A DNA stretch of 64,000 nt, taken from positions 372,001-436,000 of the forward strand of contig NZ_JARHTQ010000001.1 in the NCBI RefSeq assembly GCF_029223525.1, read 5' to 3'. Shown here in pieces: positions 7,014 through 52,597 of the stretch (position 1 is its first letter; every line of letters starts with the position of its first letter). Under the pieces are notes generated by a model, which did not search any database, had not been told where the DNA came from, and saw nothing but the letters and a program-made list of their open reading frames with translations. The stretch comes from Streptantibioticus ferralitis (lineage in GTDB: Bacteria; Actinomycetota; Actinomycetes; Streptomycetales; Streptomycetaceae). The position numbers and the translations under genes were made by a program.

Positions 7014-7655
7014 CTATGTGTTCTTCGCCGCATAGTTGAGAACCCGCTCGCCCAACAGGTCCTCCATCTCGTCGAGGAGGTCGAGTGCCTCCCTGGAGAC
7101 CTCCGCGGGCTTGCGGCCCGCCACCATCTCGCGGCCGACGTATCCCATGAGCGTGGTCTGCAACCAGGCGAGTTGGGAGCCGACAAGGAGCGGCAGCGGA
7201 TCGTCGGGGGCGGCCGCCATCTCCTCACGCAGGGTCCGCTCGACGGATTCGACGACCTCCTGCTGCAGGTACCACAGGCGCGCCTTGAGGGCGTGTGATT
7301 CCTCGATGACGCGCATGAAGCGGTCATATCCATCGAACAGCCCAACGGACGGCGACACTTCCTCCACCTGTCCGCGCAGCTCGCGCAGTACGGCCGCGGC
7401 GGCCGACTCCCCCTTGCCGCGGCCTCGCACATACCGGGGAAGGCGGTCGATCACGCCCTGGCTCCGATCGAAGAAGAGGTCCTCCTTCGCGGGGAAGTAG
7501 TTGTACACGGTGTTGACGGAGACATCGGCGGCGGCGGCGATCTCCGCGATGGTCACCGCGTCGAACCCGCGCCCCAGGAACAGCCCGGTCGCGATGTCCG
7601 AGATGTTCTGCCGGGTCCGCCGCTTCTTCCGCTCCCTGAGCCCCTCTTCCGCCAT
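7014..7655 (-). CDS. TetR-family regulator of the adjacent ABC exporter
   Basis: The 213-residue protein has a basic N-terminus and a canonical TetR helix-turn-helix (VTIAEIAAAADVSVNTVYNYF, about residues 34-54); the rest is a helical ligand-binding/dimer domain. The ATG at 7655 follows GGGGG. It is divergently transcribed from an ABC exporter, and the shared 79-bp gap carries a near-perfect AT-rich inverted repeat. This is the standard layout of a local drug-responsive repressor controlling its own gene and the pump. Ligand unknown. Confidence 0.9.
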   Translation of the reverse strand: MAEEGLRERKKRRTRQNISDIATGLFLGRGFDAVTIAEIAAAADVSVNTVYNYFPAKEDLFFDRSQGVIDRLPRYVRGRGKGESAAAAVLRELRGQVEEVSPSVGLFDGYDRFMRVIEESHALKARLWYLQQEVVESVERTLREEMAAAPDDPLPLLVGSQLAWLQTTLMGYVGREMVAGRKPAEVSREALDLLDEMEDLLGERVLNYAAKNT

Positions 7656-7685
7656 GCCCCCATCCTAGCTTTGCTGGGGCTGATG

Positions 7686-7710
7686 AAATTTTGGAGGCAT
7701 TGCAAAATTT
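7686..7710. promoter_or_regulatory. Putative TetR operator (AAATTTTG-N9-CAAAATTT)
   Basis: Perfect 8-bp arms separated by 9 nt, strikingly AT-rich for this genome and placed midway between the divergent tetR and ABC genes. The right arm overlaps a -35-like TTGCAA (7700-7705); an 18-nt spacer leads to TTTCTT (7724-7729), directly before the ATG at 7735, so bound repressor would cover the exporter promoter. Confidence 0.7.
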
Positions 7711-7734
7711 AAGAGACCCTGCTTTTCTTGCGCC

Positions 7735-8517
7735 ATGGCAGTCATCAGTACGTCCGGGCTCGCCCGGACCTTCCAGACCAGGAGCGGCCCGGTCCAGGCC
7801 GTACGCGGCATCGACCTCACCGTGCAGGCCGGCGAGATCCTGGGCTTCCTCGGCCCCAACGGCGCCGGAAAGACCACCACCTTGCGGATGCTCACCACGC
7901 TGCTCGCGCCGACCGGTGGAGCCGCCACCGTGGCGGGCTGCGACCTCGTCCGCGATCCGGCCGGGGTACGGCAGAAGACCGGGTATGTCGCCCAGTCAGG
8001 CGGCGTCGACCCGAGCATCTCCGTACGGGAGGAACTGGTCACCCAGGGACGGCTCTACCGGCTGTCCAAGGCCGAAGCCGAGGCGCGCGCCGAGGAGTTG
8101 GCCCGCGAGCTCGACCTGACCGAACTTCTGGAGCGCAAGTGCGCCGCATTGTCCGGCGGACAGCGGCGGCGGCTGGACATCGCCATGGGCCTCGCCCACC
8201 GGCCCGCGGTGCTCTTCCTGGACGAGCCGACCACCGGACTCGACCCGGGCAGCCGCTCCGACCTGTGGGACCTGGTCCGGCTCATCCGCGCGCAGTGGGG
8301 CACCACCGTCTTCCTCACCACGCACTACCTGGACGAGGCCGACGCGCTCTCCGACCGACTGGTCATCGTCGACCAGGGCCGGATCGTCGCGGACGGCACC
8401 CCGATCGCCCTCAAGAGGCGATACGCGGGCTCGCCCGACGCGACCTTGCAGGACACCTTCCTCGCCATCACCGGGCGCGGGGTCACGCCCCAGGACGCCA
8501 CCCCCGTCGCCGTCTAG
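7735..8517 (+). CDS. ABC transporter ATP-binding protein (DrrA-type exporter)
   Basis: A 260-residue ATPase subunit of an ABC-2 type multidrug/antibiotic exporter. Walker A GPNGAGKT is at 40-47, the Q-loop at YVAQ (84-87), signature LSGGQ at 139-143 and Walker B VLFLDEP at 159-165, followed by the D- and H-loops. It is shorter than DrrA (about 330 residues) because the C-terminal extension is reduced. No Shine-Dalgarno site precedes the ATG and the promoter-like hexamers end five bases before it, suggesting a leaderless mRNA. The permease gene follows after 9 bp. Confidence 0.92.
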   Translation: MAVISTSGLARTFQTRSGPVQAVRGIDLTVQAGEILGFLGPNGAGKTTTLRMLTTLLAPTGGAATVAGCDLVRDPAGVRQKTGYVAQSGGVDPSISVREELVTQGRLYRLSKAEAEARAEELARELDLTELLERKCAALSGGQRRRLDIAMGLAHRPAVLFLDEPTTGLDPGSRSDLWDLVRLIRAQWGTTVFLTTHYLDEADALSDRLVIVDQGRIVADGTPIALKRRYAGSPDATLQDTFLAITGRGVTPQDATPVAV

Positions 8518-8526
8518 GAGCCCTCG

Positions 8527-9282
8527 TTGACCACTTTCCTCGCCGACACCGCGCTGGTCTTCGGGCGTTACGCCCGTCAGACGCTGCGCTCCAAGATTCA
8601 GATCCTCTTCGGCGCCCTGATGCCGGTGCTCTACCTGCTGCTCTACGGACCGCTGCTGACCGGAATGCCGCTGGCCTCCCGCGGCAGTTCCTGGCAGGTG
8701 CTGGTCCCTGGTCTGCTGCTGCAACTCGGGCTGTTCGGCGCCGCGTTCTGTGGTTTCGCCATCATCATCGAGAAGCAGCACGGCGTCGTGGAGCGGATGC
8801 GGGTCACCCCGGTCAGCAGGCTCGCGCTGCTGCTGGGCAGGGTGCTGCGGGACGCGGCGCTGTTCGTCTTCCAGGCCGTGCTGGTGATCCTCGTCGCGTT
8901 GGCCATGGGTCTGCGCGCACCGCTGTTCGGCATCGTTCTCGGCTTCGCGTTCGTCGCCGCGATGGCGGTCTCGCTCGCCTCGCTGTCGTACTCGCTCGCG
9001 ATGCGGGTGTCCACCCCGCAGTCGTTCGGCCCGCTGGTCAACGCGGTCAACATGCCCGCGATGCTGTTGTCCGGCCTGATGCTGCCGATGTCGCTCGCGC
9101 CCGGCTGGCTGAACGTGCTCTCGCACCTCATGCCGTTCCGCTATCTGGTCGACGCGGTACGGGCCGCCTTCGTCGGCGACTACGGCGGCAGCACGATGCT
9201 CTACGGGGTGCTGGTGGCCGCGGCGCTCCTGGCCGTCTCGGTGACCACGGGGACGCGGCTGTTCCGTAAGGCCGAGGCCTGA
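8527..9282 (+). CDS. ABC-2 type transporter permease (DrrB-type)
   Basis: A 251-residue integral membrane protein with about six hydrophobic helices and the ABC-2 membrane architecture; it pairs with the preceding ATPase to form a dimeric exporter. It starts at TTG 8527 with GGAG eight bases upstream, 9 bp after the ATPase stop, so the two are co-transcribed. The substrate cannot be inferred; homologous pumps export anthracyclines and other hydrophobic compounds. Confidence 0.9.
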   Translation: MTTFLADTALVFGRYARQTLRSKIQILFGALMPVLYLLLYGPLLTGMPLASRGSSWQVLVPGLLLQLGLFGAAFCGFAIIIEKQHGVVERMRVTPVSRLALLLGRVLRDAALFVFQAVLVILVALAMGLRAPLFGIVLGFAFVAAMAVSLASLSYSLAMRVSTPQSFGPLVNAVNMPAMLLSGLMLPMSLAPGWLNVLSHLMPFRYLVDAVRAAFVGDYGGSTMLYGVLVAAALLAVSVTTGTRLFRKAEA

Positions 9283-9316: not shown

Positions 9317-9889
9317 ATGGTCAATCTGACGCGCATCTACACCAGGACCGGCGACAACGGCAGCACCGCCCTCGGCGACATGAGCCGGGCCCCCAAGACC
9401 GACCCGCGGATCGCGGCGTACGCCGACGCCAACGAGGCGAACGCCGCGATCGGCGTGGCGATCGCGCTGGGCGCACTGCCGGGGGAGGTCGCCAACGTCT
9501 TGGTCCGGGTGCAGAACGACCTGTTCGACGTCGGGGCGGACCTCGCCACACCGGTCGTGGAGAACCCCAAGTACCCGCCGCTGCGCGTCGAGCAGAGCTA
9601 CATCGACAAGCTGGAAGCCGACTGCGACCGCTTCCTGGCCGACCTGGAGAAGCTACGCAGTTTCATCCTGCCCGGCGGCACCCCGGGCGCCGCACTCCTC
9701 CACCAGGCCTGCACGGTGGTCCGCCGCGCCGAACGCACCACCTGGGCCGCCCTGGAGTCCCACGGCGAAACGATGAACCCGCTGACCGCGAAGTACCTGA
9801 ACCGCCTCTCCGACCTGCTGTTCATCCTGGCGCGGACAGCGAACAAGGAACGCGGCGACGTCCTGTGGGTACCCGGAGAAAACCGCTGA
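9317..9889 (+). CDS. Cob(I)yrinic acid a,c-diamide adenosyltransferase, PduO type
   Basis: Transfers the adenosyl group of ATP to cob(I)alamin to make coenzyme B12. The 190-residue length is normal for PduO-type enzymes. The ATP-binding motif TRTGDNGSTALGD lies at the N-terminus, and the conserved helix region ILPGGTPGAALLHQACTVVRRAER is present. The tail ILARTANKERGDVLWVPGENR is complete, but its DNA is the first copy of a 232-bp tandem repeat that continues downstream. The start appears leaderless. No cobalamin riboswitch is seen in the 34-bp upstream gap. Confidence 0.92.
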   Translation: MVNLTRIYTRTGDNGSTALGDMSRAPKTDPRIAAYADANEANAAIGVAIALGALPGEVANVLVRVQNDLFDVGADLATPVVENPKYPPLRVEQSYIDKLEADCDRFLADLEKLRSFILPGGTPGAALLHQACTVVRRAERTTWAALESHGETMNPLTAKYLNRLSDLLFILARTANKERGDVLWVPGENR

Positions 9890-10359
9890 CACCTGACAGC
9901 AGGACATCGCGTAAGGCCGGGGACCGCTTCCCTACCACCGGCCCCCAGCGCCGCGGCCACTCACCACCGCGGCAGCAGCATGACACACAGCCACAAACCC
10001 GAAACCCCTCTCCCACCCGGCCAGGGGTCCGGGGGTCGCCCCCGAAAAACACAGCATCCTGGCGCGGACAGCGAACAAGGAACGCGGCGACGTCCTGTGG
10101 GTACCCGGAGAAAACCGCTGACACCTGACAGCAGGGCATCGCGTAAGGCCGGGGACCGCTTCCCTACCGCCGGCCCCCAGCCCTGCGGCCACTCACCACC
10201 GCGGCAGCAGCATGACACACAGCCACAAACCCGAAACCCCTCTCCCACCCGGCCAGGGGTCCGGGGGTCGCCCCCGAAAAACACAGCATCCCGGCGCGGA
10301 CAGCGAACAAGGAACGCGGCGACGTCCTGTGGGTACCCGGAGAAAACCGCTGACACCTG
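9823..10359 (+). repeat. 232-bp tandem repeat (2.3 copies) containing the pduO 3' end
   Basis: Copy 1 is 9823-10054, copy 2 is 10055-10286, and a partial copy 3 is 10287-10359. Copies 1 and 2 differ at only four positions by eye. Each unit begins with the last 67 bases of pduO, stop included, followed by noncoding DNA holding a CGGGGG-TCG-CCCCCG hairpin and AAAAA. Copy 3 ends shortly after the repeated stop codon. Only copy 1 is joined to a full gene; the others are gene-tail duplicates. Confidence 0.95.
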
Positions 10360-10423
10360 GCGGGCCGGGTTCGGCGTGAGGTCGCGGCCGGTGCGGAACC
10401 CCCGGACCGCGCCGTCCTGGTTG

Positions 10424-10515
10424 CTCGCCGTCGCGGCGGAACAATCTTCGGGGCGTCCCAAAAGAAGATCGCCGGGGGGCGTTCCCCCCAAAAAGAAAAC
10501 CGCCGCGACGGCGAG
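10424..10515. repeat. Large inverted-repeat element with a 16-bp outer stem and two inner hairpins
   Basis: CTCGCCGTCGCGGCGG (10424-10439) and its exact complement (10500-10515) form a 16-bp outer stem. Inside are ATCTTC/GAAGAT (10444-10449 with 10464-10469) and GGGGGG-CGTT-CCCCCC (10474-10489), giving a three-way-junction shape. It lies between convergent genes, so bidirectional termination is the simplest role. The sequence 10405-10442 matches 52541-52578 at 33 of 38 positions. Apart from this, the interval 10360-10591 shows no gene. Confidence 0.75.
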
Positions 10516-10591
10516 AAGCCCCCACGGCGGGAAACCGGCGGTAGCCAACCAAGCGCACCCCAGAAGCGGATCCGCCGGGAGGGCGCCGACA

Positions 10592-27213: not shown

Positions 27214-27390
27214 CAATCCTCGCTTCTTCCTTCGGCTACCCCCTGCCGCCCGCAAGAAATGCAGTGGGAACGGTCTGTTCCGCAGTGTCAGACGTCTGCT
27301 CGCGCCACCCGGGTTCCAGTCCCAGAAGTGGTGAACGTCTCCTATGCCGCCATTGCGCTCACGCACAGCCGCGGCACAGCCGACACAGAC

Positions 27391-27432
27391 AAGGGGCCGC
27401 CCCCGGCACCGAAGTGACGGGGGCGGCCCCTT
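27391..27432 (-). terminator. Terminator after rho
   Basis: AAGGGGCCGCCCCCG (27391-27405) and its exact complement (27418-27432) form a 15-bp stem with a 12-nt loop, 17 bp beyond the rho stop. Confidence 0.88.
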
Positions 27433-27448
27433 GACGGCAACTCGCCTG

Positions 27449-52494: not shown

Positions 52495-52540
52495 GGCGGT
52501 AGGCGGCTTTCGTCGGGGTACGGCAGGTTTGGCACCACTG

Positions 52541-52597
52541 GTCCGCGCCGTCGTGGTCACGCGCCGTCGCGGCGGAACTTCTTGGGGGCAAGCCCCC
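52541..52597 (+). repeat. Partial copy of the 10.4-kb dispersed element plus hairpin
   Basis: 52541-52578 matches 10405-10442 at 33 of 38 positions, including the exact GCCGTCGCGGCGGAAC. Instead of the second long arm it is followed by GGGGGC-AA-GCCCCC (52584-52597), likely a terminator after the AurF-like gene. Confidence 0.65.

Follow-up and report, generated by a model that had tools for sequence, protein, structure and literature searches.

A dispersed gene-end repeat of Streptantibioticus ferralitis and its probable role as a bidirectional transcription terminator

A perfect 16-bp stem enclosing two smaller hairpins lies between two convergent genes of Streptantibioticus ferralitis, which raises the question of whether it belongs to a mobile repeat, a structured RNA or a bidirectional transcription terminator, the three possibilities offered in a preliminary description of this DNA. 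The stretch analysed (hereafter the window) comprises 64,000 nucleotides of contig NZ_JARHTQ010000001.1, and all positions are counted from its first letter. Genes were called with a codon-score script and the calls were not curated.

Composition of the element and of the arm family

The stem pairs positions 10424–10439 (CTCGCCGTCGCGGCGG) with positions 10500–10515 (CCGCCGCGACGGCGAG) and encloses one hairpin of ATCTTC (10444–10449) with GAAGAT (10464–10469) and another of GGGGGG (10474–10479) with CCCCCC (10484–10489), all exactly where they had been placed before; perfect pairing stops at the end of the stem and does not extend outward. The predicted RNA fold of the 92 nt (10424–10515, no strand assigned) has an energy of -56.6 kcal/mol on the plus strand and -62.6 kcal/mol on the minus strand (z = -6.7 and -7.1), and none of 200 shuffled sequences folded as well. 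Perfect inverted repeats of at least 16 bp with arms no more than 150 bp apart are found three times in the window, compared with one in all in 15 order-1 Markov windows, 14 of which had none. The other two such repeats of the window, at 2813–2847 and 27390–27433, have loops of 3 and 12 bases. The structure described for the 92-nt element is thus confirmed but its extent is not: matches to the arm profile go beyond 10424–10515, and the 92 nt were ruled out as the unit because the arms reach further outward on both sides.

The window element lies between convergent genes and consists of two dispersed arms of 62–73 bp in a head-to-head arrangement. The left arm (10368–10440, plus strand; 51.7 bits and E = 2.9e-14 with profile R1) is in sense orientation to the cobalamin adenosyltransferase gene upstream (PF01923; 9317–9889, plus strand) and carries the core CGCCGTCGCGGCGG at 10426–10439. 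The right arm (10568–10500, minus strand; 42.4 bits, E = 2.3e-11 with R1) is in sense orientation to the convergent DUF2550 gene on the other side (PF10739; 10592–11080, minus strand), with its core at 10513–10500. Each strand of the 16-bp stem is the inner end of one arm, the stem is where the two inner ends meet, and the spacer lies inside it. Within this spacer the ATCTTC hairpin (10444–10469, plus strand), which is also present in the fold, adjoins the left arm, and the G-run hairpin (10472–10491) is terminator-like on the minus strand, with the tail CGATCTTCTT. An outer block of the right arm (10569–10584, minus strand), which reads GCCCTCCCGGCGGATC from the side of the DUF2550 gene, matches the family outer motif at 15 of 16 positions. 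ATP synthase genes lie upstream of the DUF2550 gene on the same strand, and just upstream of the adenosyltransferase gene (7014–9282) a TetR-type regulator gene and the genes for an ABC transporter ATPase/permease pair point away from each other.

The window holds a third arm, a single one at 52504–52576 (plus strand; 55.4 bits, E = 2e-15), which sits between two genes called on the plus strand, about 10 nt past a stop codon, and is followed on its 3' side by a G-run hairpin GGGGGC-AA-GCCCCC (52584–52597, plus strand). Part of it had been noticed earlier as a recurrence of the left portion of the element, and the segment 52541–52578 indeed agrees with 10405–10442 at 33 of 38 positions.

The exact core CGCCGTCGCGGCGG has 65 copies in the genome, about 50 of which share about 60 more bases upstream (consensus GGGTTGCGGTnGGTTCGGCACCGCCGGTCCnCGCCGTnGTGGTTGCTCGCCGTCGCGGCGG); exact-core loci without an arm were left out (15 of the 65, then four more before alignment A2). 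Conservation sets in sharply at the outer edge of the arm, GGGTTGCGG, and in a subset of arms this edge is preceded by a looser outer block, GCCCTTCCGGCGGATC, which is often directly 3' of a stop codon. A sequence-only profile built from 46 arms gave at least 154 matches (E ≤ 0.01) in the S. ferralitis genome, a lower bound because scoring covered 150 of the 26,259 first-look candidates. The dispersal of the arms is certain. With single, tandem and head-to-head arrangements among them, the element is dispersed and modular as had been suspected, and the search for further copies that had been proposed as a check, carried out here with the arm profile, found many in the same genome and in relatives. 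The own-genome elements analysed below are a subset of these arms, drawn from the exact-core loci, 20 further regions and contig C22, which was scanned in full. A total of 253 unique arms were collected, of which 167 carry the exact core by selection and 86 lie outside that selection.

In a survey of 61 genomes, two congeners contained at least 79 arm matches each, other genera of the Streptomycetaceae contained 0–10, and a single weak match was found outside the family. Among 297 Streptomycetaceae genomes, 33 within four of 17 genera have a match at E ≤ 1e-5, and most of the family does without the arm, given so patchy a range. Several genomes outside the genus (G017, G129, G141, G164, G175 and G295) have at least 10 matches each, and most genomes have none. 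A 21-mer scan of named genomes gave 79 stretches, chiefly in Streptantibioticus rubrisoli, Streptomyces hiroshimensis, Streptomyces roseoverticillatus, Streptomyces klenkii, Actinacidiphila oryziradicis and a genome labelled Streptosporangium nondiastaticum; a few single 21-mer hits in Chloroflexia and Chthoniobacteraceae MAGs and in Nocardia may be due to chance. No published description of the arm family was found in the literature searched, mostly papers outside subscription, and the arm is a genuine dispersed gene-end repeat of a family not previously described in the searchable literature.

The arrangement of arms varies between genera. The complete genome G141 carries tandem arrays of three to four arms in the same orientation (L218, L222, L223, L228 and L230), spaced about 100–300 bp from start to start and with no head-to-head pairing there. 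At four loci of G175 (L227, L231, L232 and L237) the arm is followed on its 3' side by about 60 bp of conserved sequence, which includes CCGTTTCCC and then a GGGGC...GCCCC hairpin; these copies are 78–82% identical over 110–120 bp and represent a more uniform subfamily.

Position behind genes and predicted termination

None of 93 arms of the own genome lies inside a called gene, and 46 of them have the 5' gene in sense orientation and the 3' gene opposed. A total of 68 own elements were examined, after removal of three duplicate loci (L241, L242 and L256; 36 of 60 were convergent before the removal), and nine at edges were dropped from the neighbor count. Of the remaining 59, which have both neighbors called, 36 lie between convergent genes, 22 between tandem genes and one between divergent genes. 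The expectation by intergenic length on contig C22 is 14.5% convergent, 61% co-oriented and 24.3% divergent, so that convergent gaps are in excess (P = 3e-16) and divergent gaps in deficit (P = 1.5e-6). All 22 elements in tandem gaps are nearer to the upstream stop than to the next start (medians of 21 and 186 nt), and one-orientation elements in such gaps are in sense in eight cases and antisense in one. The distance from stop codon to arm peaks at 20–30 nt. Of the 37 own-genome genes that have an arm no more than 35 nt away, 25 end in TAG, compared with 117 out of 506 C22 genes; among convergent C22 genes the number is 50 out of 150.

The make-up of the 68 elements follows the same orientation: 27 are plain “+-” pairs, 15 are other mixtures (“++-”, “+--” and the like) and 26 contain arms of a single orientation. 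Adjacent own arms are “+-” in 31 cases, “++” or “--” in 24 and “-+” in none, counts that include sites fetched twice (28 of the “+-” pairs are unique). The arrangement in other species is less strict than in the own genome: 54 out of 102 elements are convergent and seven divergent, “-+” pairs do occur, and 31 of 41 tandem-gap elements are nearer to the stop.

From its sequence and setting, the window element is on balance most likely a bidirectional transcription terminator, and the relatives of the arm behind gene ends across the genome probably stop transcription there as well. Among the functions proposed in the preliminary description, this predicted one is the best supported, by position, by orientation and by the T-tract. 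Arms were found to share the orientation of the gene that they closely follow, and an intrinsic terminator is the likeliest function because the arm combines a GC-rich core hairpin with a T-rich tract and, often, a G-run hairpin. The core is followed on its 3' side by a brief stretch rich in A and T: arms with at least four T among these nine bases number 44 of 117 in the own genome, 20 of 38 in genus mates and 38 of 160 in others, set against 4.7% of intergenic 9-mers as background. Hairpins of at least 5 bp within the next 50 nt were identified in 56 of 123 own arms (16.6 in shuffled sequences, sd 3.0) and in 97 of 170 other arms (31.6, sd 4.3). Between positions 9800 and 11000 of the window there are six terminator-like sites, all on the minus strand, compared with 2.1 (sd 1.2) in shuffles; the minus-strand arm contributes a core hairpin TCGCCG-TCG-CGGCGG followed by TTTTCTTTTT (10490–10514, minus strand), with the G-run hairpin (10491–10472) next. 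Several observations count against a terminator: the plus-strand arm of the window element is without a T-tract, in most arms of the own genome (73 of 117) the nine bases contain at most three T, and the patchy range, together with the uncompensated stem mutations and the slight stability of single arms described below, points the same way. A plain terminator, moreover, needs no conserved sequence of about 60 nt.

If the terminator reading is correct, each arm would act as the intrinsic terminator of its upstream gene through the core hairpin and the U-rich tract, the second, G-run hairpin would back up the first, and a head-to-head pair would halt both convergent transcripts. The 16-bp stem would then be incidental to the opposed arrangement of two identical cores, although it would strengthen either hairpin, and arms would have dispersed and subsequently been kept at gene ends. 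Transcript 3' ends of Streptomyces avermitilis are described as carrying GC-rich palindromes, about 25% of the ends having a U-rich motif and most being without a classical U-rich terminator (PMC8780764); by analogy, the arm pattern is the one to be expected of terminators in such genomes, here apparently built from a recurrent module.

Sequence conservation, turnover and alternative explanations

The arm is conserved as sequence, without compensation in its stems. In the 86 arms outside the core selection, columns 34–40, 54–55, 63–64 and 68–74 are conserved at 91–100%, and the commonest base of the most variable columns stays below 60%. Four orthologous arm pairs (two of which share one G000 arm) are identical in 106 of 113 high-conservation columns compared with 20 of 42 low-conservation columns. 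Three candidate stems within the arm were scored for two-sided changes in 131 own-genome matches (128 distinct), giving zero cells for the core hairpin, one for CCGCCG/CGGCGG and zero for GCGG/CCGC, and mutual information peaks between neighboring columns. Single arms fold at -29.1 compared with -27.4 (sd 4.4) for mononucleotide shuffles, a slight difference, and their highest mean base-pair probability is at most 0.22. In 28 own-genome pairs the arms of one element agree at 0.688 of positions, compared with 0.680 when partners are shuffled (z = 0.9; z = -0.7 for core columns); among 27 pairs taken from named genomes the values are 0.700 and 0.672 (z = 2.9), and among the 57 pairs pooled across species they are 0.694 and 0.670 (z = 3.6). 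This weak pooled excess could stem from subfamilies particular to species, or the effect could be real but weak. A search of Rfam gave four weak matches, all far below the gathering scores, and no family was reached.

These data bear on three alternatives. A conserved structured RNA with functional stems (a riboswitch, a small RNA or a 3' UTR RNA) would account for the high fold stability of the 92 nt in either strand, with transcription coming from either side, and for the weak pooled excess in arm–arm agreement. However, that excess vanishes within the own genome and compensatory pairs are absent within the arm, so that the covariation anticipated as a sign of conserved structure is missing where the element was found, and this explanation, already weakened, has become very improbable. 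Some room is left for RNA structure, because G–C stems with near-invariant sides are uninformative on pairing. The near-invariant, uncompensated columns would suit a site for a sequence-specific protein, such as a termination, chromosome-organizing or DNA-processing factor, with the hairpins secondary; but there is no candidate protein, and the sense orientation behind genes together with the T-tract points to transcript ends, which makes such a site improbable. It is somewhat less far-fetched, though still unlikely, that the arms form a lineage-restricted, sequence-specific termination system. In it a dedicated protein would recognize, as DNA or as RNA, about 60 nt of gene-end sequence whose letters and not whose structure are conserved, convergent polymerases would be stopped in a few Streptomycetaceae lineages, and conversion or recombination, not ordinary transposition, would carry the arms to new gene ends.

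Arm sites turn over fast between congeners. G001, G002, G017 and G028 have no element in the gap orthologous to the window site; three of ten syntenic C22 elements have an arm in G001, two of them weak, and one of five in the reverse direction. One C22 element absent from G001 is common to Streptantibioticus rubrisoli (L079 with C22:348226-348482), and an element of G002 is identical to one of that species. Such lineage-specific sites, the patchy range with high-copy and zero-copy genomes within genera, the sharp outer edge and the inverted arms flanking variable spacers are what would be produced by a selfish, MITE-like element that is non-autonomous and bounded by long terminal inverted repeats. 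Such an element would insert widely, survive only at harmless places beside stop codons of convergent gene pairs, and terminate transcription incidentally. This is a possibility to be taken seriously, but not a likely one. The closest complete copies within a genome are about 70% identical over 200 bp, the window element has short partial matches only to the rest of its genome, and no recent copies above about 82% over 110–120 bp were identified in the own genome or in other species; since the nearest paralogues are so distant, none of the elements seen was the recent source of the species-specific sites. The best flank match in 20 pairs (two of which, L029/L030 and L090/L233, are repeated sites) was 3.35 compared with 3.55 (sd 0.28) after permutation, giving no sign of target duplication. 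Single and tandem arms are common, and random survival does not predict the 20–30 nt spacing behind stop codons. No arm-bounded transposase was seen among the genes called at the spacings L218, L219, L238 and L239 (for the latter two with opening residues), and no arm match was found in PLSDB plasmids, INPHARED phages or, by 21-mer search, IMG/VR viral contigs. The mobile repeat of the preliminary description is therefore borne out in its turnover between species, but not in target duplication or near-identical copies. A TA target, an idea taken from the excess of TAG stops, was rejected, as perfect outer-motif junctions without TA exist and the permutation was negative.

Comparison with known repeats and local context of the element

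REP, BIME and REPIN repeats, which are associated with RAYT transposases, consist of extragenic palindromic units that occur singly or as inverted pairs, as the arms do. The arm is much longer, and the Y1 transposase (PF01797) has no match in G000 or in six of nine high-copy genomes (it is present in the other three), nor in any of six genomes of a separate set; mobilization of the RAYT/REP type was rejected, the transposase not being required. MITEs such as RUP are described as likewise intergenic, patchy and with inverted repeats (PMC2229807), whereas the arms show neither target duplication nor a conserved length, and no autonomous partner was found at the loci read.

The uptake-signal terminators of Neisseria and the Pasteurellaceae are also a dispersed motif whose close inverted copies are described as gene-end terminator hairpins, with motifs of about 9–11 nt in about 1,000 or more copies in competent bacteria (PMC1852404); the arm, in contrast, measures 62–73 bp, has at least 154 matches and has no known link to uptake. 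ERIC (IRU, RU-1) is a similarly small intergenic palindromic family, copies of which are described as transcribed with neighboring genes in Yersinia, and is tabulated at 127 bp with a 7-bp terminal inverted repeat, target duplication and TA termini (PMC2229807). Compared with that description, which concerns a different phylum, arms are about 70 bp long, target duplication was not found and single arms are common. SPRITE of Streptococcus pneumoniae is reported as a dispersed repeat resembling rho-independent terminators (PMC10969869), a likeness that rests on its description, the phylum and the sequence being different. Overall, the arm repeat behaves like uptake-signal terminators and repeats of the ERIC/SPRITE type and lacks the MITE feature tested (target duplication) and those of REP/RAYT.

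The arms bear on how convergent genes are insulated in genomes of this kind. Their presence at dozens of gene ends in a single genome and their absence from most relatives offer natural comparisons of orthologous gene pairs with and without an arm. If the arms terminate transcription, a dispersed repeat supplies gene ends and could provide small terminator parts that work in both directions, for use in antibiotic producers; otherwise, the 20–30 nt spacing behind stop codons needs another cause.

The left arm of the window element abuts a 232-bp tandem repeat (9823–10359, plus strand; 2.3 copies, 98% matches) that consists of the duplicated last codons and 3' region of the adenosyltransferase gene. 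No comparable array is present in the orthologous gaps of two genus mates. On contig C22, arrays with a period of at least 30 occur in four of 14 element-bearing gaps (one of the four being a tandem of arms) compared with three of 277 other gaps of at least 100 bp, and this enrichment suggests that the palindromes may promote local duplication.
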